Origin: Flavobacteriaceae bacterium PS02337
Lineage (GTDB): Bacteria > Bacteroidota > Bacteroidia > Flavobacteriales > Flavobacteriaceae
Assembly: GCA_029959285.1 (NCBI GenBank)
Contig: JASCOE010000001.1
Coordinates: forward strand, 124,001 to 188,000
DNA length: 64,000 nucleotides
Direction: 5' to 3'
Shown here: in pieces, positions 7,666-42,418 of the stretch
Layout: each line of letters opens with the position of its first letter
Numbering within the stretch: position 1 is the first letter of the stretch
Notes under the pieces: model-generated
Databases searched by the model: none
What the model saw: the letters and a program-made list of their open reading frames with translations, nothing else
Told to the model about the DNA's origin: nothing
Program-made: the position numbers and the translations under genes

Positions 7666-7739
7666 GGGGGATTAGCTCATTTGGCTAGAGCGCTACGCTG
7701 GCAGCGTAGAGGCGATCGGTTCGAATCCGATATTCTCCA
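7666..7739 (+). tRNA. tRNA-Ala(GGC), island integration target
   Basis: A 74-nt cloverleaf: acceptor GGGGGAT pairs with ATTCTCC (two G-U pairs), the anticodon stem CTACG/CGTAG encloses loop CTGGCAG with anticodon GGC, and the T stem is ATCGG/CCGAT around TTCGAAT. The discriminator is A and no CCA is encoded. Its last 17 nt plus 3 flanking bases recur at 21114-21133, which marks this gene as the attachment site of the island to its right. Confidence 0.95.
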
Positions 7740-7742
7740 CAA
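7723..7742 (+). repeat. Left attachment-site repeat (att)
   Basis: The 20-bp sequence gaatccgatattctccacaa covers the 3' end of tRNA-Ala and recurs without mismatch at 21114-21133; flanking bases differ at both ends. This is the usual footprint of tyrosine-recombinase integration into a tRNA 3' end. Confidence 0.92.
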
Positions 7743-10631: not shown

Positions 10632-12194
10632 ATGGCAGAAAATAAATTATCACTAGCTACACTTGAAAGCTGGCTTTGGGATTCGGCAAACATATTAAGA
10701 GGAAGTATTGATTCCTCTGATTTCAAGAATTACATCTTTGGATTATTGTTTTTAAAACGTTCCAACGATGTGTTTGAGGAAGAGGTTGAAAACATCATGA
10801 ATCGTGATAGTGTTTCTCGTGAAGAGGCCGAAGATGCAACTTATTTTCAAATGCCAATAGAATCCCGCTGGGAAACCATCAAAAAAGAAACTGAGAATAT
10901 TGGTATTGCTTTAGATAAAGCTTTTGCTGGAATCGAGCGTGAAAACACTTCTTTGGAAGGCGTTATGACTGCTACCAAGTTTGGTGATAAAGAAAAACTA
11001 TCTGACGAATTATTACAACGTCTTTTAAGACACTTTAACCAACATTCATTAAGAAACTCTCACCTAGAATCGAATGATTTATTAGGCGATGCCTATGAGT
11101 ATTTGATTAAGATGTTTGCCGATGATGCAGGTAAAAAAGGAGGAGAATTCTATACGCCTCGTGGTGTGGTACAGTTGATTGTACAACTGATTAAACCTGA
11201 ACCAAAGCAAAAAATATACGACCCAACATGTGGCTCTGGTGGCATGTTGATTGAATCGGCTCGTTATATTGCAGAACAACCCAACGGAAAAATAGGAAAC
11301 AATATCAATGTATCGCTTTTTGGTCAAGAAAAGAACCTTGGAACATGGGCAATTGGTAAATTAAACATGTTGCTCCATAACTTCATGGATGCCGATATTC
11401 GTAAAGGAGATACTTTAATCACTCCCCAACACAAAAACGAAAACAACGAGTTAGAGTTATTTGACCGTGTCATTGCCAATCCTCCATTCTCAATGGATGG
11501 ATGGTGGACACCAGCTGAAAACTCTATTGAAGTAAAGCTAGATAAAGACGGTAAAGAAAAAAAAGTCACTCCCAATTATGCCAAAGTTGTTACTGACCCT
11601 TACGGCCGTTTCCAGTACGGAATACCGCCAAGAGGCTATGCCGATTTGGCTTTTTTGCAACACATGGTAGCCGTATTAAAACAAGATGGAAGAGCTGGTG
11701 TTGTTTTACCTCATGGAACTTTATTTAGAAGCGGAGCTGAAGGCACCATCAGACAAGGCTTATTAGAAGCTGATTTGATTGAAGGCATTGTAGGGTTGCC
11801 AAGTGCTTTGTTTTACAATACAGGAATACCTGCTTCTATCTGGATTATTAATAAAAATAAAACCGAAGCTCAAAAAGGCAAAATAACCATTATTGATGCC
11901 AGTAGTGATTATAAAGAAGGCAAAAACCAAAACGAATTATTACTTGAGCACATTGCTAAAATCGTAAAAGCATACGATGGAGCAACTGATGTAGAAAAAT
12001 ACATGCGTATTGTTAACGTTGCTGAATTAGCTAAAAACGATTACAACCTAAACATTTCTCGATTTATTGATACCTCTGAAGCTGAAGTTGAAGTAGATAT
12101 TAAAGCAGTTCACGAGAAACTATCCGAATTAGAAAACCGTGAAACGGAAATAGATTTAAAATTGGCTGAATTTTTAAAAGAATTAGGTATATGA
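10632..12194 (+). CDS. hsdM: Type I restriction-modification DNA methyltransferase subunit
   Basis: 520 aa N6-adenine methyltransferase. An N-terminal HsdM helical domain (about 10-140) precedes the catalytic domain with SAM motif I D-P-T-C-G-S-G-G from residue 197 and catalytic N-P-P-F at 283-286. With HsdS it methylates adenine in a bipartite target; with HsdR as well it forms the restriction complex. Its stop overlaps the hsdS start in an ATGA. The divergent HTH gene starts 154 bp away. Length and motifs are complete, so it looks functional. Confidence 0.96.
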   Translation: MAENKLSLATLESWLWDSANILRGSIDSSDFKNYIFGLLFLKRSNDVFEEEVENIMNRDSVSREEAEDATYFQMPIESRWETIKKETENIGIALDKAFAGIERENTSLEGVMTATKFGDKEKLSDELLQRLLRHFNQHSLRNSHLESNDLLGDAYEYLIKMFADDAGKKGGEFYTPRGVVQLIVQLIKPEPKQKIYDPTCGSGGMLIESARYIAEQPNGKIGNNINVSLFGQEKNLGTWAIGKLNMLLHNFMDADIRKGDTLITPQHKNENNELELFDRVIANPPFSMDGWWTPAENSIEVKLDKDGKEKKVTPNYAKVVTDPYGRFQYGIPPRGYADLAFLQHMVAVLKQDGRAGVVLPHGTLFRSGAEGTIRQGLLEADLIEGIVGLPSALFYNTGIPASIWIINKNKTEAQKGKITIIDASSDYKEGKNQNELLLEHIAKIVKAYDGATDVEKYMRIVNVAELAKNDYNLNISRFIDTSEAEVEVDIKAVHEKLSELENRETEIDLKLAEFLKELGI

Positions 12195-13402
12195 TGCAAT
12201 TACCAAATAAATGGAAGGATTATACTTTTGGAGATATTGTAAAGTTTTCTGGAGGTGCACAGCCACCCAGGAATACTTTTAAGTTTGAATCACAAAAAGG
12301 GTACATCAGATTAATACAAACTAGAGACTATAAGTCAAGTAAATATATTACATATATACCTGAAGAATTAGCTAGAAAGAAATGCGAAAAAGATGACATA
12401 ATGATTGGTAGGTACGGGCCTCCAATTTTTCAAATACTACGAGGTCTAGAAGGTGCTTACAACGTAGCGTTAATAAAAGCAGTTGCGGATGAACAACAAT
12501 TAAATAAGGAATATCTTTTTTATTACATTAGTCAATATAACGTTTGGGCTTTTGTGGAAAATTTATCACAGAGAAGCGGTGGTCAAACAGGAGTAGATTT
12601 AGAAAAACTTAGAGAATACCCTTTTCCACTTCCCCCTTTAGAAGAGCAACGAAAAATTGTACAAATATTAAAAACTGTTGATGATAAAATTGAGGTCATA
12701 AAACATCAAATTATCGAAACTCAAGAACTCAAAAAAGGCTTGATGCAACTCTTATTAACCAAAGGTATTGGACATACAGAGTTTAAGGATTCTTCTTTGG
12801 GGATGATTCCTGAGAGTTGGAAGGTAGAAAAACTTGGAAAAGTGGCAAAATCATTCGCAGGAGGAACACCAAAAAGAGGTGTGAACGGTTATTATGGTGG
12901 TTCAATACCTTGGATAAAATCTGGAGAAGTAAATAATAATTCAATTAAAGGAGCTGAAGAACATATAACAGAACTAGCATTGAAGGAATCATCTGCAAAA
13001 CTTATTGAGGCTAATTCCATTCTAATAGCTATGTACGGTGCTACTGCTGGAAAAATAGGAATGCTTAAAGTATCAGCATGTAGTAATCAAGCTGTGTTAG
13101 CGGTTTCTTCAAAAACATCAGGTATTATAACCAACCTTTTTTTATATCATTACTTAAAAAAAAGTACAGTTGAGTTATTAAATCTTTGCCAAGGTTCTGG
13201 TCAGCCAAATTTAAGTAAAGGAATTGTTGATAATTTACAAATTCCTTTACCCCAGATTCCAGAGCAACAAAAAATATCTCAAATCTTGAATTCGGTTGAC
13301 GATAAACTAGAAGTTTTATTAGAAAAGAAAACCTATTACCAAGAACTTAAACAAGGCTTGATGCAACAATTGTTAAAGGGAAAAATTAGGGTACAAGTTT
13401 AA
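12191..13402 (+). CDS. hsdS: Type I restriction enzyme specificity subunit
   Basis: 403 aa with the expected twofold plan. Target recognition domain 1 (about 5-155) is followed by the conserved spacer helix P-P-L-E-E-Q-R-K-I ... L-K-K-G-L-M-Q-L-L-L. Domain 2 (about 200-345) is followed by P-Q-I-P-E-Q-Q-K-I ... L-K-Q-G-L-M-Q-Q-L-L. The two spacer helices are clear internal repeats. The target sequence cannot be predicted from this alone. It overlaps hsdM by 4 nt; an alternative ATG three bases downstream is possible. No inverted hsdS fragments suggest phase variation. Confidence 0.95.
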   Translation: MMQLPNKWKDYTFGDIVKFSGGAQPPRNTFKFESQKGYIRLIQTRDYKSSKYITYIPEELARKKCEKDDIMIGRYGPPIFQILRGLEGAYNVALIKAVADEQQLNKEYLFYYISQYNVWAFVENLSQRSGGQTGVDLEKLREYPFPLPPLEEQRKIVQILKTVDDKIEVIKHQIIETQELKKGLMQLLLTKGIGHTEFKDSSLGMIPESWKVEKLGKVAKSFAGGTPKRGVNGYYGGSIPWIKSGEVNNNSIKGAEEHITELALKESSAKLIEANSILIAMYGATAGKIGMLKVSACSNQAVLAVSSKTSGIITNLFLYHYLKKSTVELLNLCQGSGQPNLSKGIVDNLQIPLPQIPEQQKISQILNSVDDKLEVLLEKKTYYQELKQGLMQQLLKGKIRVQV

Positions 13403-13423
13403 TCAAGAAAATTAGCAAGCGAT

Positions 13424-14116
13424 ATGAAATTTGAAGTTTTTTGTGACGAAAGCAGTCCAGAAGTATTATGGGATAGAAAAGCGAATACCTTTTTAGTCCT
13501 TGGTAGTATTTGGATTCCTGCTGACTATAGACCAGAATTTAAAGAGAACATCAAAAAAATTAAAGAAGCTCATAATTACCGAAATGAAATCAAATGGAAT
13601 AAAGTTTCACCTTCTTCTTTAATGTTTTTCAAATCTTTAATTGCATACTTTTTCAGTACCGAGAATATCCGTTTTAGAGGTATATTGGTCGAAGCCGAAA
13701 AAGTTGACATGGTCAAATTTCATAATGATGATAGCGAACTGAGTTTTTACAAATTCTATTATCAATTGTTGCATCATTGGATTTTAGATTTTAACGAATA
13801 CACTATTTTAATAGACCACAAAGTAAACAAAGACCATAACAGAATACAAAGCCTAAAAAAGATATTAAATCATACTAATTTGTTTTCTAATATCGAAAAC
13901 GTACAAGCATTGCCTTCTCATGAAGTATTAGGGGTGCAACTGGCCGATTTTCTAACAGGAGCATTGAACGGAAAGTTTAACAACAAAATAACCAGCGAAG
14001 CCAAAAAAGAAGTTATTCGAGAAATTGAAAAACATATTCAAGGGGAAATAAAACCAACTCCAAAAGCAGAAGAAAAATTTAATGTTTTCAAAATTAATCT
14101 TCAAGGAGGCTGGTAA
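13424..14116 (+). CDS. DUF3800 protein, first gene of module copy 1
   Basis: 230 aa. The DUF3800 signature is clear: F-C-D-E-S at 6-10, E-I-K-W-N-K-V-S at 55-62, I-D-H-K with Asp131, and S-H-E then Q-L-A-D-F-L-T-G-A with Asp175. The spaced acidic residues suggest an RNase H-like metal site. It aligns over its length with the protein at 41077 (shared E-I-K-W-N-K-V-S and V-Q-L-A-D). It begins 21 bp after hsdS and its TAA overlaps the next ATG (TAATG), so the two are translationally coupled. Function of this family is not established; here it interrupts the hsdS-hsdR order. Confidence 0.85.
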   Translation: MKFEVFCDESSPEVLWDRKANTFLVLGSIWIPADYRPEFKENIKKIKEAHNYRNEIKWNKVSPSSLMFFKSLIAYFFSTENIRFRGILVEAEKVDMVKFHNDDSELSFYKFYYQLLHHWILDFNEYTILIDHKVNKDHNRIQSLKKILNHTNLFSNIENVQALPSHEVLGVQLADFLTGALNGKFNNKITSEAKKEVIREIEKHIQGEIKPTPKAEEKFNVFKINLQGGW

Positions 14117-14571
14117 TGAGTTATAAAAAATTAAAACCACATACACTAGACGAAGCAACTAGAGAGGCTGATTTACGATTACTTTGGAAAGAGGTTTATT
14201 GTGACAACACTAAGCCTATACATACTTTTGATGGTATTTTGGTCAAGTTTTATGAGGATATGTTTGACCATTGTTTTTATGAAAGTGCAAATAATAAGGC
14301 AAAAGACAAATCGATTTTATCCTTAAACAGATTAGAGAAATTGCATTGGATTAAAGACACTTTAGAAGATACTACTTCCTTATTGAAACAAGGTTGGGAT
14401 AGCCAGAAAAAAGCTTATATCGCTAATAGAAGAGTAACATTAGTAAAGGGTAATTATATTGTAATAATCAGTATTAATAAGCTTAGAACTCAAGCGAGAT
14501 TTATAACAGCTTATGAAATTCAAAATGAAGATAAAATTATTGAAATTCAAAAATCACCTGATTGGACATGA
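14116..14571 (+). CDS. Putative BECR-like nuclease partner of DUF3800, copy 1
   Basis: 151 aa. The C-terminal half aligns with the protein at 41823: N-R-L-E-K-L (71-76, R-x-E), Trp94, R-R-V (105-107), Tyr114 with I-V-I, then F-I-T-A-Y-E-I (129-135). A late T-A-Y after paired strands is what I would expect of barnase-EndoU-ColicinE5-RelE-type RNase folds, but this is inference, not a search result. An upstream F-D-G-I-L-V (38-43) is also shared. Start overlaps the DUF3800 stop by one base. It could be a toxin restrained by its neighbour. Confidence 0.6.
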   Translation: MSYKKLKPHTLDEATREADLRLLWKEVYCDNTKPIHTFDGILVKFYEDMFDHCFYESANNKAKDKSILSLNRLEKLHWIKDTLEDTTSLLKQGWDSQKKAYIANRRVTLVKGNYIVIISINKLRTQARFITAYEIQNEDKIIEIQKSPDWT

Positions 14572-14583
14572 AACAATAAGGCA

Positions 14584-14647
14584 TAAAAAAACGCTGATTA
14601 CTGGTTCAGCGTTAGACCTTTTTAGATTCCAGACCTTGGGTAAAGAA
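14584..14647 (-). ncRNA. Candidate opposite-strand small RNA, copy 1
   Basis: On the minus strand a TACATTTG box (14660-14653) is followed about 40 nt later by a perfect hairpin, AACGCTGA (14590-14597) with TCAGCGTT (14606-14613). A seven-base T-run then follows (14591-14585). The T-run exists only in the minus-strand direction. A -33 TTG is not evident. An RNA of about 63 nt would end just past the stop of the small module gene. The arrangement recurs at 42300-42382. Confidence 0.35.
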
Positions 14648-14726
14648 CAGTGCAAATGTACATAATAAATATCAATATTGTTGATAAAATTATTTTTTAT
14701 ACTTTTTTTATAATAATAAAACACAC

Positions 14727-17700
14727 ATGAATAACAAGCCAGAGTATATATTTAGCGAGTTGCCAGCCATAGCTCTGTTCCAAGAAATGGGCTATCATTA
14801 TTTTAATGGAGAGCAACATCAAGAACGCAATGATATAACCGAGGTGATTCTTAAAACACGATTATTAGACGCTATTAAGCGTATCAATCCTTGGATAAAC
14901 GACAATAACCTTAACAAAGCCTATACATTAATCACATCGGTTACGGGAACTTCTTTAATGGAGATTAACCAGAAGGCTTGGGAACTTATCAAAGGAGGAA
15001 CTTATACCGTGAAACAAGTTATTGATGAGGTTGAAGGATTTCATCCAGTACATTTCATAGATTATGAAACCATTGGCAATAATGATTTTTTGGTGGTGAG
15101 TCAAATGAAATTCCATGGTAGATTTCGACACTCTATTCCAGATTTGGTCATTTACATCAACGGCTTACCTATTGGTATAATTGAATGTAAATCTCCTATT
15201 GCTCCAACTGCTTGGGATTCTGCTTATGGAGATTTAAAATATTATCAGGAAAACTCAGAGAAGCTATTTCACTTCAACCAGATATGCGCTGGTATATGGC
15301 AAGTTGGGGGGAAATACGGAGCGATTAACTCACCACAGCAATTTTATTCTGTTTTTAAAACTAATAAAGAAGATACAGATATTTTGGCAAAAGCCAAAAC
15401 AGAACAGGATAAACTCCTTATTGCTCTGTTCAAGAAAGAGCGAGTGTTGGATATTATTCGTCACTTTGTTTTGTTTGAATTGGACGAAGGCATTACCATA
15501 AAAAAGTTACCACGATACCAACAAATAAGAGCCACCAACAAAACGATAGAACGCTTGCAAGCTGGAGAAGGTGGAGTGGTTTGGCATACTCAAGGTTCTG
15601 GTAAATCGTTAACGATGGCTTATGTTGCCCGTAAATTACAAGCTCCAGAATATGGATTTGATAATCCAACGGTGATGATAATGACCGATAGAAAGGATTT
15701 GGACAGACAAATCACAACCACATTACAAAACGTTGGATTCAAGAATGTAAACCAAGCTTCATCTGTAGTTCATTTAGATAAATTGCTTCGCAATGATTAT
15801 GGTGGGATAATTACGGCCACGATACAAAAATTTCAAGAAACGGATAAAGAAGCAACGAACTCTACTGACCAAACCGAACTAGAGGAGCAAGGCAATTTCA
15901 TGATTGAAAAGCATCTAAAAGATAAAACACTTGTCAAGATTACCAAAGAACTCCAAAAAGGGAAATGGGTAGAAATTGACCGTGTTGAAATTGAATTAGA
16001 AGAGCTTTCAAGAAAAGAAAATCTTTATATTTTAGTAGATGAAGCACACCGTAGTCATTATGGCTTTCTAGCTTCATTCATGCGTACTGTATTACCCAAC
16101 GCTAAGTTTATAGCCTTTACAGGAACTCCAATCTCGAAAGAAGATAAATCAACTTTGGGAGAGTTTTATGGCGGTGAATATATTGATGTTTATACCATTA
16201 TAGAATCTGTTGCCGATGGAGCAACTGTTGAGTTATTGTATGATGAAGGAATCTGCAAATTGGATGTTAAGAAAGAAGCATTAGATGCTGAATTTGAAGC
16301 AAAATTTGCTGATGCATCTGAAGAAAAAAAGGATAAACTAAAACGAGAGGCACTTAAAAAATACCAATTATCAGCAGAACGGATTGATGATATTTCCAAA
16401 CATCTAATTGACCATTTCAGAGACAAGATTTTTCCTGATGGCCATAAAGCCATGTTAGTATGTAGCGGAAGAGAATCGGCTATTAAATATCAACAAACCT
16501 TACATAGACTAAAAGTAGAAGGCTATCACGATTTTGATTCCAAAGTGGTAGTTAGTATTAGTTCGCCAAAAACGGATGCCATTGCCAAAGATTATTATGA
16601 AACTTTAGAATGGAACCGTAACAATCCAACTAATAAAAAACCAATATACGTTGTACCACCCGAAGACATCAAAGATGCTACGGATGATTTTAAATTGCCT
16701 TATGGAAACGAAAACGAAACAGAAAAATCAGGTAAAAAGAAGTATGATAATACAGCTATCATGATAGTTTCGGACATGTTGCTTACTGGTTGGGATGCTC
16801 CAATTGCATCTTGTTTGTATCTGGATAAACCGTTGAAGGAACACAACCTTTTACAAGCCATTGCCAGAGTAAACCGTTCTAGAAAAGGAAAAAATGCGGG
16901 TTATATTGTAGATTATAACGGAATCACAGCCTATTTGATTCAAGCTTTAGAAATCTTTTCTGGAGACATAAGACCCGATGATATTTTGAAGAATATCAAC
17001 GAAGAGTTTCCAAAGTTAGAAATGAATCATACCAAACTTGTTGATTTCTTTAGACCAATGAAAATTGATAGAAATTACGAGAGGGAGACCTATATTGATT
17101 CCGCTGTTCGATTCATTGAACCAATCGACAGGCGAGACGATTTTAAATCACTATTGAAAGACTTCAACAAATCAATCAATATCGTATTGCCGAATACCAG
17201 AGCTTTGAAATATCAAGGCGATTTCAAATTGTTTAATGAAATTAAATTAAGAGCTAGAAACACTTTTCCCGATGATGATGAGTTAAAAATCAGCAAGGAT
17301 GAAAGTAAAATGCTCCAAACGATGATAGATGAACATCTAAAATCAAACGGAGTCCATAGTTTATTATCAGAGCCTATTTCCATAATTGATAAAGATAAAT
17401 TCAAGGAGGAAATCATGAACGCATCACCAGCAACCAAAGAGCTAAAGATGCGAAACAACTTGAAACATGTCATTAAAGTTGGATTAGATAAGAACCCAGA
17501 TTTTTACAAACCACTTGCTCAAAGATTGGATGAATTGTTAAAGCAAAAAGAAGCCCAACGAATTGATGAAGCGCAATTACTTGTAGCTTACACCGCATTG
17601 CAAGATGAAATTATCAATGAACAAAAAGAAGGTGAGGAAAAAGGTTTTGTGACAGAACGAGAACGAGCAGTGTACAACTCCATGAAAACGTTATTTGATG

Positions 17701-17903
17701 GTACTGCCGAAGATGCTACCAAAACACTGTTTGACCTTATCCAAGGCGAACTGAGTATTGTGGCTTGGGAAAACAAAGGTCAAGTTCAAAAAGATATTGA
17801 AAACAAAATTGTTAGATTTTTGAGTACTAAGTTAGAACGGTCAGAAGCTAAGGCCAAAGCCAAAGAGATGGTAGACGTTTTAAAGAAGAATAAAGATGTA
17901 TAG
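14727..17903 (+). CDS. hsdR: Type I restriction endonuclease subunit
   Basis: 1058 aa. The N-terminal PD-(D/E)xK nuclease shows P-D at 138-139 and E-C-K at 153-155. The SF2 translocase follows: Walker A Q-G-S-G-K-S at 289-294, D-E-A-H at 438-441, F-T-G-T-P, and a late Q-A-I-A-R-V-N-R. The C-terminal 250 residues are helical and probably bind the methyltransferase. It cleaves unmethylated DNA after ATP-driven translocation. It is separated from hsdMS by the DUF3800 module and a 155-bp gap holding the candidate RNA; its own promoter is therefore likely. Confidence 0.96.
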   Translation: MNNKPEYIFSELPAIALFQEMGYHYFNGEQHQERNDITEVILKTRLLDAIKRINPWINDNNLNKAYTLITSVTGTSLMEINQKAWELIKGGTYTVKQVIDEVEGFHPVHFIDYETIGNNDFLVVSQMKFHGRFRHSIPDLVIYINGLPIGIIECKSPIAPTAWDSAYGDLKYYQENSEKLFHFNQICAGIWQVGGKYGAINSPQQFYSVFKTNKEDTDILAKAKTEQDKLLIALFKKERVLDIIRHFVLFELDEGITIKKLPRYQQIRATNKTIERLQAGEGGVVWHTQGSGKSLTMAYVARKLQAPEYGFDNPTVMIMTDRKDLDRQITTTLQNVGFKNVNQASSVVHLDKLLRNDYGGIITATIQKFQETDKEATNSTDQTELEEQGNFMIEKHLKDKTLVKITKELQKGKWVEIDRVEIELEELSRKENLYILVDEAHRSHYGFLASFMRTVLPNAKFIAFTGTPISKEDKSTLGEFYGGEYIDVYTIIESVADGATVELLYDEGICKLDVKKEALDAEFEAKFADASEEKKDKLKREALKKYQLSAERIDDISKHLIDHFRDKIFPDGHKAMLVCSGRESAIKYQQTLHRLKVEGYHDFDSKVVVSISSPKTDAIAKDYYETLEWNRNNPTNKKPIYVVPPEDIKDATDDFKLPYGNENETEKSGKKKYDNTAIMIVSDMLLTGWDAPIASCLYLDKPLKEHNLLQAIARVNRSRKGKNAGYIVDYNGITAYLIQALEIFSGDIRPDDILKNINEEFPKLEMNHTKLVDFFRPMKIDRNYERETYIDSAVRFIEPIDRRDDFKSLLKDFNKSINIVLPNTRALKYQGDFKLFNEIKLRARNTFPDDDELKISKDESKMLQTMIDEHLKSNGVHSLLSEPISIIDKDKFKEEIMNASPATKELKMRNNLKHVIKVGLDKNPDFYKPLAQRLDELLKQKEAQRIDEAQLLVAYTALQDEIINEQKEGEEKGFVTERERAVYNSMKTLFDGTAEDATKTLFDLIQGELSIVAWENKGQVQKDIENKIVRFLSTKLERSEAKAKAKEMVDVLKKNKDV

Positions 17904-18588
17904 CGTACAATACGGCAATCGTACTATCGAGTATTCGATTCTAGAGAAAGAAGGCCTTAAATCATATTATATTAGTGTAGAAAAAGGAGTTGGTGTAGTC
18001 CTTAAAGGCAAACCCATTTCAACTGAGCAAGCAGATAAATTGATACTAAAAAAAGCCAAATGGATTTTAGATAAATTGGATTTGGTAAGCTCCATTAGTG
18101 ATGGTGAAATTGTCACTGGTTCCAGAATTCAATATCTGGGAAGAAAGTACTATGTTGAGGTTTTAATTGATAATTCAACTTCCAAAATAAACATTGATTT
18201 TACCGAATCTAAATTCAAGATTTCACTACCAGATGGCTTGAATACTCAAGAAAATTTGCTTAAATCTTTTGAAAACTATTTCAGGATAAAAGCACAAGAA
18301 AAAATTGAGCCTATTCTAAAAAAGAAATCCAAAGCAACAGGTTTACAATACAACAACGTCAAGTTCATGAAGCTTGAAAAACGTTGGGGCAGTTGCACAC
18401 CATCGAACACGATTATTATCAATAACAACGCTATTAAATTACCATTTTCACTCATAGAATATTTGGTTGTTCACGAGCTAGTACACACAAAGATAAAAAG
18501 CCATTCCAAAGAGTTTTGGGCTGAACTATCTAAACATGTTTCCAATTGGAAGGATTTAGATGCTAAAATGTATGGTATGAAGTTATAA
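17896..18588 (+). CDS. YgjP-like (DUF45) metallopeptidase domain protein
   Basis: 230 aa. The C-terminal domain carries R-W-G-S-C (163-167) and zinc motif H-E-L-V-H (193-197) with third ligand His203 in S-H-S-K-E-F-W, the hallmark of the YgjP/SprT-like family. It overlaps hsdR by 8 nt, so it is translated from the same message. YgjP-like genes are often found at the end of type I restriction operons; a role in processing the complex has been suggested but is unproven, to my knowledge. Complete in length. Confidence 0.88.
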   Translation: MYSVQYGNRTIEYSILEKEGLKSYYISVEKGVGVVLKGKPISTEQADKLILKKAKWILDKLDLVSSISDGEIVTGSRIQYLGRKYYVEVLIDNSTSKINIDFTESKFKISLPDGLNTQENLLKSFENYFRIKAQEKIEPILKKKSKATGLQYNNVKFMKLEKRWGSCTPSNTIIINNNAIKLPFSLIEYLVVHELVHTKIKSHSKEFWAELSKHVSNWKDLDAKMYGMKL

Positions 18589-19811: not shown

Positions 19812-20993
19812 TTATATAACTGGAATTGCTTTAGTTTTAATATCAACAAACTGCCCTAGTTTTCTAAGATATATTTCAGTGGTAGTAATTGAAGTATGGC
19901 GGTTTGCCTTCATTATTTCGGCTAAAGTCCATCCGTTCATATACTTCTTAATGTTTGAAGTATGCTTGAAAGAATAAAGGTCATATCCTTTTTCATTAAG
20001 TTCTAGTTTCTTTAAGGCTGATATAAGTTTGTTATATGGTGTATTTTCTCCGACTCGTTTTTCTCCTATAATATTTTTAGAATCTCCAGTTAAGTAATAT
20101 TGATTAGGGTATTGGTCAAGATTCAATTGTTCTAAAAATGGCTTAAAGCTTTCATTGATTTCAATTATTTCTTTTTCATTGTTTTTTGTTACCTTTTTTA
20201 CGCTTGGTGGTATTGTGATTGTGTTATTAACTAAATCAATATTCTCCAATTTTAGGCCTCGAATTTCAGCGGGTCTCAAACAGGTATAGTAAATCATTCG
20301 ACAGAAAAAAGCACAATACATATCATTCTGGTCTAAATATGTGAATATGGTATTCAAATCACCATCATTAAATGGAGTGTGTTGCTCTTTGGTTTCTTTT
20401 GTACTATTGATTTTTTTATCAAAACCTTCGTACGGATTTATTTTAATTAATCCTTCAACAATACAAACATTAAAAAAAGTACTAAAAGTACGTTTAGCAC
20501 TCTTTACACTAGCTTGGCTATAGGTGCCATCGGCTATTTTAGCTTTTATGAATGCTTGAAGTTTCTTAGTAGTAATTTCTAAAAGCAGAATGTTTGGATA
20601 GAAGGAACTGAGCGCATTAAGTTTGCTCATGTACGTTCCAATCGTTTTAATACGGCTATTATTTTCTTTGTGGTATTGCTTAAAATGTACAATAGCTTTA
20701 GAAAGCGAACATGTTTCTTTTATTCTGTCGGCCACCCATTGAGTTTCATCCAAAGGATTATAGCCATTCGCTAAATCCAGTTTTATGCTCTCTAAAAGCA
20801 CCTGAGCTTGAAATTCTTTTTCAGAAGCATCTTTTATTCTGTTTAAATCACCTTTTACCCTAATTTGCTTACCTTCGTATGTGTAATTCACGTACCAAAT
20901 ATTTTTAGCAAGTTCTTTTGATTTTGTACTACCTTTTGGTACAAATGTTATTGCTTTTCCTGTATATAATTTTGGTGTGGTATACTTACTCAT
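19812..20993 (-). CDS. Tyrosine recombinase (island integrase)
   Basis: 393 aa. A core-binding SAM-like domain (about 95-190) leads to the catalytic domain, with Arg240 in C-L-R-P-A-E-I-R-G, His344 in Y-S-F-K-H-T-S-N, His366 in N-R-H-T-S-I and nucleophile Tyr375 in T-E-I-Y-L-R. The box-II arginine of H-x-x-R is Asn347 here, a substitution seen in some Bacteroidota integrases as far as I recall. It catalyses recombination between the tRNA-Ala att sites. Its start lies 38 bp from the right arm site, so integrase binding could repress its own gene. Confidence 0.93.
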   Translation of the reverse strand: MSKYTTPKLYTGKAITFVPKGSTKSKELAKNIWYVNYTYEGKQIRVKGDLNRIKDASEKEFQAQVLLESIKLDLANGYNPLDETQWVADRIKETCSLSKAIVHFKQYHKENNSRIKTIGTYMSKLNALSSFYPNILLLEITTKKLQAFIKAKIADGTYSQASVKSAKRTFSTFFNVCIVEGLIKINPYEGFDKKINSTKETKEQHTPFNDGDLNTIFTYLDQNDMYCAFFCRMIYYTCLRPAEIRGLKLENIDLVNNTITIPPSVKKVTKNNEKEIIEINESFKPFLEQLNLDQYPNQYYLTGDSKNIIGEKRVGENTPYNKLISALKKLELNEKGYDLYSFKHTSNIKKYMNGWTLAEIMKANRHTSITTTEIYLRKLGQFVDIKTKAIPVI

Positions 20994-21100: not shown

Positions 21101-21119
21101 GGATTCTCGTAGAGAATCC
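21101..21119. repeat. Palindrome overlapping the right att repeat
   Basis: GGATTCTC-GTA-GAGAATCC is a perfect 8-bp inverted repeat with a 3-bp centre, whose right half runs into the att repeat starting at 21114. Inverted core-type sites of this size are what a tyrosine recombinase binds at the crossover region. Confidence 0.55.
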
Positions 21120-21133
21120 GATATTCTCCACAA
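21114..21133 (+). repeat. Right attachment-site repeat (att)
   Basis: Exact 20-bp copy of 7723-7742, the displaced 3' end of tRNA-Ala. The rest of a tRNA is not present here, so this is the far junction of the island. Confidence 0.92.
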
Positions 21134-39387: not shown

Positions 39388-40374
39388 ATGACAAATAAAT
39401 ATACAGTCGGAAGTTTGTACGCAGGTGTTGGCGGTATTTGTTTGGGTTTTGAAAATGCTGGTTTTAAATTAGAATGGGCAAATGAATTTGACAAAAAAGC
39501 CTGCATTACTTATAAAAACAACTTTGAGCACAATTTGATTGAAGGCGATGTAATGCAACTTGACGTCAAAAAAATGCAAAAAATAGACATTCTCACCGCA
39601 GGATTTCCGTGCCAACCTTTTTCGCTTGCGGGACACAGAAAAGGTTTTGAGGACGTTCGAGGCAATCATTTTTTCAAAATATTAGATTTTGTTGACGAAA
39701 TGCGGCCTAAAGTAATATTTCTTGAAAATGTCAAAAACCTAAAAAGTCACGACAAAGGAAATACCATAAAAGTAATTGAACGCGAAATTAAAAAACGCAA
39801 TTATACTTTTGACAGCGCCATTTTGAATACAAAAGATTTCGGAAACATTCCGCACAATCGCGAACGCGTTTTTATGATTGCTTTTGATAAAGATTTCGTC
39901 AAAAGAGGTTTCAGATTTAAGTTTCCTGAAAAAGAAGAATTAACTAAAAAAGTCACCGATTTAATCACGAAAGAACAAGTCGATAAGAAATTCTATTATA
40001 CCGAAGACAAATACATGTACAATACGCTAAAAGAAGCCGTTGTGCGTGAAGACAGAATTTACCAGTTTAGAAGACATTATGTTCGAGAAAACAAAAGAAA
40101 AGTCTGCCCGACTCTAACCGCAAATATGGGAACTGGCGGACACAACGTTCCAATTATCACAACCGATTTTGGTTTTAGAAAATTAACTCCGAGAGAATGT
40201 TTCCGTTTTCAAGGATTTCCAGATAGCTATAAATTACCCAAGATCTCCAATTCTAATCTTTACAAACAAGCCGGAAATTCGGTGAGTATGCCGGTTATCG
40301 AAAGATTGGCTTCTGAAATTTTCAAATACATTCAAAAAACAGAAGCAAAAAAGGTGAAAATCCAAAAAACCTAA
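39388..40374 (+). CDS. C5-cytosine DNA methyltransferase
   Basis: 328 aa. Motif I is G-S-L-Y-A-G-V-G-G-I-C near the start, motif IV G-F-P-C-Q-P-F-S has catalytic Cys75, motif VI is E-N-V (113-115), and motif X is Q-A-G-N-S-V. It methylates cytosine at carbon 5 in an unknown short target. It overlaps the convergent Vsr gene by 4 bp. No cognate restriction endonuclease other than Vsr is recognisable in the 39.4-42.3 kb locus. Confidence 0.94.
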   Translation: MTNKYTVGSLYAGVGGICLGFENAGFKLEWANEFDKKACITYKNNFEHNLIEGDVMQLDVKKMQKIDILTAGFPCQPFSLAGHRKGFEDVRGNHFFKILDFVDEMRPKVIFLENVKNLKSHDKGNTIKVIEREIKKRNYTFDSAILNTKDFGNIPHNRERVFMIAFDKDFVKRGFRFKFPEKEELTKKVTDLITKEQVDKKFYYTEDKYMYNTLKEAVVREDRIYQFRRHYVRENKRKVCPTLTANMGTGGHNVPIITTDFGFRKLTPRECFRFQGFPDSYKLPKISNSNLYKQAGNSVSMPVIERLASEIFKYIQKTEAKKVKIQKT

Positions 40375-40790
40375 ATACTCCGAAACATTATTGCTCCTTC
40401 AATTTTAGCGATACAAACTTCAAGATTTTTCTCTATTTCTTTGCTCCAAAATCGCAAAATCGTCCAATTTTCTGAAATTAGAAAAGTATTGACTTCTTCA
40501 TCTCTTTCTATGTTTCTCTGAATTTTCGGAATCCAATATTCCCGATTCGATTTGATTCTAAGTTGTTCTGTTTCCCAATCTTTTCCGTGAAAGAATTCGC
40601 TATCAACAAAAATGGCAATTTTATATTTAGCAAAAGTAAGATCAGGCCTTCCAAATATCTTTTTATTGTTTTTTCGATATCTGTAGCCTAATTTCCATAA
40701 CGCTTTAGCAAGCCTTACTTCGCCTTTTGTAGCAGTGCTTTTTATCGCCCGCATAGTTTTGCTCCTCTGCTCGGGAGTCAATCTATCCAT
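40371..40790 (-). CDS. vsr: Very short patch repair (Vsr)-like endonuclease
   Basis: 139 aa. M-D-R-L-T-P-E-Q-R-S-K-T-M-R-A-I-K-S is the classic Vsr opening. F-G-R-P-D-L-T and I-F-V-D-S-E-F-F-H-G (usually V-F-V-D-G-C-F-W-H-G) carry the nuclease acid residues and His. The usual zinc-type Cys in G-C-F-W-H-G-C are absent. Vsr nicks T:G mismatches formed by deamination of 5-methylcytosine, which fits the methyltransferase with which it is convergent. A restriction role is also possible. Confidence 0.88.
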   Translation of the reverse strand: MDRLTPEQRSKTMRAIKSTATKGEVRLAKALWKLGYRYRKNNKKIFGRPDLTFAKYKIAIFVDSEFFHGKDWETEQLRIKSNREYWIPKIQRNIERDEEVNTFLISENWTILRFWSKEIEKNLEVCIAKIEGAIMFRSI

Positions 40791-41076: not shown

Positions 41077-41826
41077 ATGAAAGAAACAATTAACATATAT
41101 TGTGACGAAAGTTGTCATTTGCAAAATGATAATGAATCAAGTATGGCATTAGGCGCTATATATTGTCCCTCTGCTAAGAAAGATGAAATATTTCTACGTA
41201 TATCGGAGATTAAAAGAAAACATAAATTATTTCCAAAGTATGTAAAAGATAAAAAGCAAAATAGACCTGTTTATGAGATAAAATGGAATAAAGTTTCCAA
41301 GAATAAATTAGCATTTTACAAAGAATTAATTGATTTTTTCTTTGATGATGACGATTTAAGCTTTCGAGTTTTAGTAGTCCCCGAAAAGAAAAAGATTGAC
41401 TATAAAGCTTATGGACATACACATGATACGTTTTATTATAAAATGTATTTTAGTATGTTAAAGGTTATCTTAAACCCTGAATATGCCCACAATATTTTTA
41501 TTGATATAAAAGACACTAAAAGTCGTGAAAAAGTTCATAAACTAGAAAAAGTTCTTAGAAACGACAAATACGATTTTTCTAAAGAGATTATTAAAAAAGT
41601 TCAACAAGTACGTTCTCATGAAATAGAATTAGTACAACTTGCAGATTTATTTACTGGAGCAGTTTCTTACGTAAATAGAGGCTTAAACACGAGTAACGCT
41701 AAAATGGAACTAATTGAATACATTAAACATCGTTCTAGATATTCATTACTTAAGTCAACATTAATAAAAGAGAAGAAATTCAACATATTTCTTTCGGAAC
41801 ACTCTAATTTAAACATTAATCAATGA
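41077..41826 (+). CDS. DUF3800 protein, first gene of module copy 2
   Basis: 249 aa. Y-C-D-E-S at 8-12, E-I-K-W-N-K-V-S at 67-74, I-D-I-K with Asp143, S-H-E at 180-182 and Q-L-A-D-L-F-T-G-A with Asp190 match the copy at 13424 in order and spacing, so these are paralogues. It lacks a signal peptide. Its TGA overlaps the next start as ATGA. An RNase H-like nuclease or an antitoxin-like partner are both possible; activity of DUF3800 is not established to my knowledge. Confidence 0.85.
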   Translation: MKETINIYCDESCHLQNDNESSMALGAIYCPSAKKDEIFLRISEIKRKHKLFPKYVKDKKQNRPVYEIKWNKVSKNKLAFYKELIDFFFDDDDLSFRVLVVPEKKKIDYKAYGHTHDTFYYKMYFSMLKVILNPEYAHNIFIDIKDTKSREKVHKLEKVLRNDKYDFSKEIIKKVQQVRSHEIELVQLADLFTGAVSYVNRGLNTSNAKMELIEYIKHRSRYSLLKSTLIKEKKFNIFLSEHSNLNINQ

Positions 41827-42320
41827 GTAATCTAATTTCTTTAAATTTTCCAAATCTAGAATTGTTTCAAAATTATGGCGGTAATTTTAAAACATATTTT
41901 ACTGCGGTTTATAATATTTTTGAAAGTCATTTTATCAAAAATAAAACATTATTTCAAGGAATTCATGTAACCGCTCAAAAACATCCCGAGGTTGATGGCA
42001 TTCACAGAACTTTTTATCATATAACACATGAAGGTGAAGATGAAGATAATCGCACACCTGATTTTGATAGAATGGAGAGAATACGTTTTCCTAATTTCAT
42101 GATGAATAGTTGTCCTAATGATGAACTTCTTATCTGGAAGAATCAAAGAGGCAGAGACACTCGCGTATTAATCTTTAACGAGACAGAAGGTTATTTAGTA
42201 GTAATGACAGAAAGAAAAGGGTTTAATCTTTTTTGGACAGCATATTATATCCAACAGAATCACTCAAAGAAAAAACTTTTAAAAGAATACGATGCATATA
42301 TAAAAACCAAAACCGCTTAG
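41823..42320 (+). CDS. Putative BECR-like nuclease partner of DUF3800, copy 2
   Basis: 165 aa. Shared with the protein at 14116: F-Q-G-I-H-V (44-49), F-Y (64-65), F-D-R-M-E-R-I (81-87), Trp105, T-R-V (113-115), Tyr124 with L-V-V, and F-W-T-A-Y-Y-I (137-143). An H-R-T-F-Y-H-I-T-H-E segment (61-70) adds possible catalytic His residues not present in copy 1. I infer a compact RNase-type fold. Start lies within the stop of the DUF3800 gene, so expression is coupled. Confidence 0.6.
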   Translation: MSNLISLNFPNLELFQNYGGNFKTYFTAVYNIFESHFIKNKTLFQGIHVTAQKHPEVDGIHRTFYHITHEGEDEDNRTPDFDRMERIRFPNFMMNSCPNDELLIWKNQRGRDTRVLIFNETEGYLVVMTERKGFNLFWTAYYIQQNHSKKKLLKEYDAYIKTKTA

Positions 42321-42382
42321 GGTCACTAAACGGTTTCTATACTCCTTTAACGCTAACAACACTAAATGTATGGTTACTGAGC
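42300..42382 (-). ncRNA. Candidate opposite-strand small RNA, copy 2
   Basis: From the promoter at 42388-42418 a minus-strand RNA would end at a hairpin formed by 42310-42320 and 42326-42336 (11 bp, 5-nt loop) followed by a T-rich tail. The stem has a C-A mismatch if read from the plus strand but a G-U pair in the minus-strand RNA, so the minus strand folds better. The RNA would overlap the last 11-20 nt of the small module gene. Confidence 0.42.
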
Positions 42383-42387
42383 TGGTG

Positions 42388-42418
42388 CAAATGTATGAAA
42401 GAATTATTGTTATTTCAA
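42388..42418 (-). promoter_or_regulatory. Consensus promoter facing the module copy 2 3' end
   Basis: Minus-strand TTG (42418-42416), a 20-bp spacer and TACATTTG (42395-42388) match the Bacteroidota consensus exactly. The 11-nt sequence GTGCAAATGTA (42385-42395) is identical at 14650-14660 behind module copy 1. Confidence 0.55.

Follow-up and report, generated by a model that had tools for sequence, protein, structure and literature searches.

A candidate small RNA gene accompanies the PDC-M04/RlfAB gene pair and suggests a possible RNA-controlled RNase module that travels with restriction systems

The 64,000-nucleotide stretch of the Flavobacteriaceae bacterium PS02337 genome that was analyzed here (contig JASCOE010000001.1, positions 124,001 to 188,000; hereafter the window) contains, in two copies, a gene pair for a DUF3800 protein (A) and a small partner (B). 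The pair at 41077-42320 is referred to as module 2 and the pair at 13424-14571 as module 1. Judged by protein content both are PDC-M04/RlfAB pairs, and beside each of them lies an element that looks like a small RNA gene overlooked by standard annotation. The parts of the two modules are as follows:

41077..41826, plus strand: module 2 gene A, DUF3800 protein of 249 amino acids, PDC-M04A/RlfA-like, with a predicted RNase HII fold
41823..42320, plus strand: module 2 gene B, 165 amino acids, PDC-M04B/RlfB-like, with a predicted RelE/colicin-D-type RNase fold
42302..42387, minus strand: small RNA gene of module 2 (predicted), oriented toward B, with its 5' end near 42387 and the core of its hairpin at 42342-42381
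42388..42395, minus strand: -7 box TACATTTG of the module 2 RNA, Bacteroidota-type, with TTG at 42416-42418 (-33 spacing)
42302..42336, minus strand: terminator-like hairpin and U-rich run of the module 2 RNA, overlapping the last B codons
13424..14116, plus strand: module 1 gene A, DUF3800 protein, PDC-M04A (from Pfam, PADLOC and alignment with module 2 A)
14116..14571, plus strand: module 1 gene B, PDC-M04B, 151 amino acids (from PADLOC and profile comparison)
14585..14652, minus strand: module 1 predicted small RNA, sequence-divergent, terminator AACGCUGA..UCAGCGUUUUUUU, fold z -1.95
14653..14660, minus strand: -7 box TACATTTG of the module 1 RNA

The two A proteins score 51.5 (module 2) and 51.0 bits (module 1) against the DUF3800 profile PF12686 (cut-off 21). 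They are 34% identical over 237 columns (E 2e-28) and contain the DUF3800 motifs on which the original prediction had based its proposal of a duplicated gene pair, a proposal that thus stands. Both copies had also been described as overlapping by ATGA. This applies to module 2, where the start of B overlaps the end of A in that way, but the overlap in module 1 is a single base. The pairwise alignment that had been suggested as a check was clear for the A proteins, whereas the B proteins gave no significant match (E 0.52). At the level of profiles the B proteins do show the postulated similarity, be it a modest one: each window B is matched by 11 PDC-M04B models (PADLOC, E up to 1), nine of which are common to both, the module 1 B scores 23.3 bits against a profile of 78 module-2-type B sequences that was built without it and without divergent members, and hhalign of the two B groups (4 versus 78 sequences) yields an E of 2.4e-5 at a probability of 75%. 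We consider the two pairs to be paralogues, the small proteins being related by profile only. As had been anticipated, the DUF3800 copy is the better conserved one, with a mean column identity of 54% in the A alignment versus 36% in the B alignment. A third, weak DUF3800-like match with one internal TGA is present elsewhere in the same genome (contig C22, 251437-251967; L003, where L and G numbers denote the loci and genomes used for comparison).

The RNA first came to notice through a stretch behind B that is nearly identical between the window and L035. A common element behind B was found by sequence in 79 of 86 regions, a set that includes double entries from two collections (e.g. L011/L099, L012/L038 and L013/L045). 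The hairpin was missed in module 1 of the window, L014, L018, L019, L033, L072 (contig end) and L077, the last of which was later matched by a covariance model. Read along the minus strand, the RNA consists of a promoter, the series CUCA-stem-CC-loop-stem-AAGGAG, a terminator-like hairpin and a U-rich run. The inner stem occurs in the variants UAAC/GUUA, CUAC/GUAG, CAAC/GUUG, UGAC/GUCA, CCAC/GUGG and others.

In the hairpin alignment (78 of the 79 rows kept, L015 being left out), in which pairing is favoured by the finder's demand for at least four pairs, 94.5% of the cells of eight pairs were paired among 55 distinct rows, versus 84.7% in shuffles and 41-54% in slid versions, and 51 double-change cells were counted versus 15.6 in the shuffles. 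For the inner four pairs the values were 99.5% versus 81.1% and 49 versus 15.5, respectively, with slid versions reaching at most 54%. The counts of double-change pairs and of pair types were not clearly above those of shuffles (55/500 and 68/500), and the outer U-A pair (columns 5/42) fails in 22 of the 55 rows. As a control, RNAalifold was applied to 40 of the 79 rows found by sequence alone. This helix was again obtained, and three of its pairs showed double changes, in 2, 12 and 18 rows. A second sequence-only search recovered 78 elements, and the four inner pairs were standard in a fixed register in 60 of these.

Upstream of the hairpin, the sequence TACATTTG at 42388-42395 was read as a Bacteroidota -7 box, the consensus of which we take to be TAnnTTTG. 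At fixed spacing, this pattern occurs in 36 of the 79 regions; of the other 43, 16 have a sigma70-like pair (means in mononucleotide shuffles of 0.25 and 0.27, respectively), which leaves 27 regions with neither pattern. The RNA of phage P1 (see below) has a TTGAAA-N17-TAGATT promoter and a terminator hairpin that is followed by AGCUUUUUA. Single-sequence folds gave z values of -5.75 for P1, -3.92 for L106, -2.21 for module 2 and -1.95 for module 1, and in P1's own fold the first hairpin forms the inner four pairs only. Plus-strand folding of the regions behind B gave no significant z values (-0.91, 0.71, -1.66 and 0.73). A reading of the element as a peptide gene was rejected, since inspection by eye showed loops that differ by single bases and more as well as in-frame stops, and hence no common reading frame. 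The module 1 RNA was not matched by the covariance model but is laid out in the same way; 34 columns are invariant among it and its relatives in L018, L017 and L115 (four sequences).

This covariance model comprised 71 sequences, obtained after removal of four duplicates and subsequently of L004 (P1), L082 and L104. It matches 20 of 36 sources, including P1, P7 and a Bifidobacterium phage at the expected place. In a scan of 70 further loci all 70 sites were matched with one weak extra match in 1.06 Mb; most of these loci supplied the model's own rows and match by construction, and the scan is informative only for the scarcity of extra matches. The 5.7-Mb genome to which the window belongs contains one match (window 42333-42390), and whole P1 and P7 contain one each. 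Of 296 Bacteroidota genomes, 20 have the RNA and 25 have B; the 16 that have both all carry them within around 80 bases of each other on opposite strands. The RNA occurs without B in G015, G040, G047 and G222, the latter two matches being weak. Conversely, nine genomes have B without an RNA recognized by the model. These include the divergent types of L014, L015, L018 and L019, and G159, in which the RNA is visible by sequence (L011).

In the window, the terminator of the RNA and the end of B overlap on opposite strands, and in operons with the order M-S-A-B-R (in which M, S and R denote the hsd genes discussed below) the RNA lies opposite the gap between B and R. Such positions would suit an RNA that merely tunes B or the downstream gene by pairing with their mRNA. 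Antisense control of this kind, however, does not require hairpin conservation. Both the hairpin and the letters beside it are nevertheless maintained across phyla, whatever gene follows, and we hold this explanation to be improbable. At L124-L130, seven places in all, B is broken into fragments and A did not turn up in the piece that was fetched, yet the RNA scores 36-53 bits. A harmless or protective RNA would be expected to persist in this way beside a broken B. Taken more widely, well-preserved RNAs are found by B fragments, or where no B was found, at L124-L132 and L136, in several genomes of one family; these RNAs are possibly protective orphans or cases of recent decay. In L137 the RNA is degenerate too.

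PADLOC labels A and B of both modules PDC-M04A and PDC-M04B (E 1e-51 to 1e-88), in which PDC stands for phage defence candidate according to the part of PMC12429752 that was consulted. No mention of the terms PDC-M04, PDC-M04A or PDC-M04B turned up in the literature searched. In tblastn searches B showed 30-32% identity to proteins encoded by P1 (RlfB), P7 (RapB) and two P1-like records and 31% to one of a Bifidobacterium phage, with nine matching records in total among 50,697 phage records. Relatives were also detected in 101 of 72,556 plasmid records, of Escherichia, Salmonella and Shigella. Viral contigs were rejected as carriers of B, as six pattern matches included no relative. Other DUF3800 genes occur singly, next to holin/antitermination genes of lambdoid type or to a P2-like CI repressor.

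P1 carries homologous A and B in the same order and, by the model that was built without P1, the RNA behind B, on the minus strand between rlfB and pmgF (near 52.9-53.0 kb of the record). In both P1 (RlfA-RlfB) and P7 (RapA-RapB) B follows the DUF3800 gene with a one-base overlap, and the gene order, overlap and place of the RNA thus resemble those in the window. Apart from the limited identity of B, P1 differs in that rlfA-rlfB lies directly behind repL and an annotated C1 operator, under C1 control, and in that the RNA is unannotated in the P1 record. The GenBank annotation of the pair reads 'possibly associated with lytic replication', and the name Rlf presumably stands for replication-like function. 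Together with the position behind repL, these would fit a role in phage or plasmid replication. Against such a role, the loci found are mostly chromosomal or contig loci in the vicinity of restriction genes. In addition, both rlfA and rlfB are listed as non-essential in a CRISPR interference table (PMC10695390), and the consulted parts of two papers describe the pair as lost or replaced in some P1-like elements (PMC6906374, PMC9603915) and assign it to one of the eight regions that vary among P1-like plasmids (PMC9603915). We consider a replication function very improbable.

To specify the genomic neighbourhood, an alignment of A was scanned against one genome each of 84,980 species and the best 80 of 447 confirmed loci were used, among which close relatives of module 2 are over-represented. 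They belong to Bacteroidota, Pseudomonadota, Chloroflexota, Acidobacteriota, a cyanobacterium and others. L090 and L100 had no called A gene, which left 78 loci. A co-directional gene of 90-215 amino acids lies within 60 bases 3' of A in 73 of these, which argues that the A-B arrangement is not due to chance. The RNA model matches all five loci without a called B (L039, L061, L068, L103 and L105), L068 weakly. The genes around the two window modules are:

10632..12194, plus strand: HsdM-like gene (module 1), named from its own sequence and not from a library scan
12191..13402, plus strand: HsdS-like gene (module 1), named in the same way
14727..17903, plus strand: HsdR-like gene (module 1), named in the same way
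39388..40374, plus strand: C5 cytosine methyltransferase (module 2), library match
40371..40790, minus strand: Vsr endonuclease (module 2), library match

The gene directly upstream of A encodes HsdS in 13 of 77 loci according to Pfam and in 15 according to the best-matching PADLOC models. Beyond B, an HsdR N-terminal domain was found in 10 of 75 cases, PADLOC type I restriction enzymes in 9 and type III methyltransferases in 5. Among 77 control genes more than 6 kb away (the first 77 of 110 distant genes drawn) no Pfam or PADLOC family had more than two members, and HsdS and HsdR_N were not among the first 25 control families by member number, so that one member is still possible. Using profiles seeded with the HsdM, HsdS and HsdR of the window, the iterated 'HsdR' one of which may include other helicase-type subunits, Hsd-like genes made up 88 of 530 genes within 5 kb; at larger distance on these contigs the figure was 11 of 364 (Fisher p 1.7e-11, a value that is too small as genes of one operon are not independent). 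The predicted enrichment near restriction genes is thereby supported.

The proposed link to DNA-modification genes is supported, but not for the kind of genes that lie beside module 2. With the Dcm and Vsr proteins of the window as seeds, one Dcm-like and no Vsr-like gene was found in the 80 loci. The module 2 neighbours are therefore not the rule, and the Dcm/Vsr neighbourhood was rejected as a defining association. The linkage is to type I restriction genes, plus some type III and IIG genes. Likewise, of the earlier view of a real functional unit linked to defence, the unit and its linkage to restriction stand, whereas no experiment demonstrating defence by any PDC-M04/RlfAB member was found in the literature. 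As for the window itself, no restriction endonuclease is evident among the open reading frames of 36-48 kb, around the C5 methyltransferase and Vsr genes at 39388-40790. Module 1 probably sits on an integrative element, because a perfect 20-nt direct repeat (7723-7742 and 21114-21133), the first copy of which overlaps the 3' end of a tRNA gene (7666-7739), encloses 13.4 kb that include an integrase-like gene (19812-20993, minus strand).

An M/S-type gene before and an R gene after the module, as in module 1, were seen in 12 of the 78 loci, and R and M/S all before it in 9. On a Phyllobacterium plasmid (L115) the row S, M, GIY-YIG gene, S, A, B, HsdR, SprT repeats the module 1 order in another phylum; nearly the same hsd-A-B-hsdR-SprT order is thus shared by L115 3638-13335 and window 10632-18588. 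These arrangements would agree with a restriction guard of the PrrC kind, in which the restriction enzyme itself silences the RNase and phage antirestriction proteins free it; PrrC is silenced by its linked type I enzyme, as stated in the consulted part of PMC2610378. While 46 of the 78 loci have an Hsd-like gene within 6 kb, the remaining 32 have none by the profiles used (some contigs being short), other loci adjoin type III or IIG genes, and the P1 module lies away from the P1 restriction genes in the stretch examined. Silencing by the restriction enzyme itself consequently appears quite unlikely to us.

Structural comparison of the predicted fold of A retrieves RNase HII first and Argonaute PIWI domains next, pointing to an RNase H2-type fold. 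Identity in the structural rows is 9-15%, and the likeness to RNase HII is a prediction only. D10, E11, D143 and D190 are kept in 91 of 91 rows. These four acidic residues may correspond to the catalytic D-E-D-D of RNase HII. For B, the first 21 structural rows are RNase toxins (colicin D, CdiA toxins and the RelE/HigB/BrnT kinds), and H66 and R83 are kept in 84 of 84 rows. Neither window B matched PBECR2 (Pfam) above the cut-off, but one of the 84 B members, the module 1 B relative of L018, came close (26.0 bits versus 27.1). Apart from PBECR2, Pfam searches with the 84 B proteins (E up to 10) gave no family beyond chance level, and sequence searches of the PDB with A or B returned nothing meaningful. 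The gene pair probably encodes two RNA-cutting enzymes.

The similarity of A to RNase HII and PIWI domains and its invariant acidic residues could also be taken to mean that A is an RNA-armed effector nuclease, with the small RNA as structural cofactor or activator and B as a processing or second RNase. The consulted part of PMC10910872, in which DUF3800 proteins in Cas12 loci are suggested to serve interference or crRNA handling and a link to non-coding RNA is made, would be in line with this. Nevertheless, the RNA has no variable guide part, its hairpin is fixed, and A and B are inseparable in 73 of the 78 loci, which makes this alternative unlikely.

While the anatomy of the module is well supported, the mechanism is what we infer from it. 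The gene pair, its linkage, the predicted folds, the invariant residues and the signals of an RNA gene (promoter, covarying hairpin and terminator) are established. Tentatively, at a probability of roughly 0.4, we propose an RNA-controlled RNase module that travels with restriction systems, with B as the effector and A plus the small RNA as its silencer. The unit would have three parts, namely the RNase HII-like A, B with its RelE/colicin-D-type RNase fold, and the small RNA, which would be transcribed toward B from its own promoter. B would be a toxic RNase that cuts cellular RNA and is kept silent by A and the small RNA as an antitoxin ribonucleoprotein. Travelling with restriction systems, the module would serve as a second line of defence, B being released once infection disturbs the complex. 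Production of the RNA, its binding to A or B, the toxicity of B, the trigger and defence as the outcome are thus all supposed. An antitoxin role of the RNA is favoured because of the A-B order, the own promoter and the survival of the RNA beside broken B genes. Two points weigh against the proposal: the invariant acidic residues leave room for A as the effector, and the C1 operator in P1 speaks against simple prophage defence. With slightly less confidence still, one may suspect a new class of RNA-controlled bacterial immunity, namely a three-part complex made up of A (RNase HII-like), B (a colicin-D/RelE-type RNase) and their own small RNA, which is spread over many phyla, is coupled to restriction systems and has gone unnoticed in P1.

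In comparison with known systems, both proteins of both window modules match the PADLOC models of PDC-M04, which is a two-protein candidate without a mechanism in the literature found and does not list an RNA among its parts. The pair as such, as PDC-M04 and as P1 RlfAB, was already known, and what is new is the RNA component. To a candidate known by label alone, an RNA component is hence added, and folds are predicted for its two proteins. No assigned function of rlfA or rlfB was found in the records and literature searched, and since the same three parts are present in P1, a standard laboratory phage, the idea is testable with existing strains. B may resemble the BECR-type RNases (colicin D, CdiA toxins, RelE/HigB/BrnT and PBECR2), as its first structural rows are toxins of these kinds and the L018 B nearly reaches the PBECR2 cut-off. 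PrrC-type guards consist of an ABC-ATPase and HEPN domains, and neither gave a Pfam match in the window A or B at E up to 1. PrrC likewise places an RNase-like effector, as predicted here, inside type I restriction operons, but the folds differ from those of A and B, and the enzyme linked to modules of the window type is not always type I. The module may work like a PrrC guard but is not one. In type III toxin-antitoxin systems the RNA antitoxin consists of repeats and its gene precedes that of the toxin on the same strand, whereas the RNA described here is a single hairpin, downstream and on the opposite strand. By the position of its RNA, the module is not such a system.

A further parallel is with the DUF3800-associated RNAs of Rfam (e.g. 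RF02969, DUF3800-I, and RF03075, DUF3800-VIII), which are also structured RNAs beside a DUF3800 gene. They differ in that none of the 4227 Rfam models matched the new RNA where this was searched (both window RNAs, P1 and L009), and the partner B and the position are specific to the new RNA. It is of the DUF3800-associated kind but fits no listed family where searched, and no DUF3800 family of Rfam reached its gathering score at these RNAs. Identity with DUF3800-VIII was rejected: a model made from three such matches found, in 92 sources, those three and a site in L052 that is not adjacent to B. DUF3800-VIII was observed behind other DUF3800 genes on the opposite strand (L014 2928-2992, L022 2347-2410 and L025 2332-2405, minus strand). 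Its placement relative to the gene is that of the new RNA, and a common principle, an RNA behind the gene on the opposite strand, may run through the DUF3800 superfamily. The finding also connects the unexplained RNAs next to DUF3800 genes with a system of proteins that includes a plausible effector.
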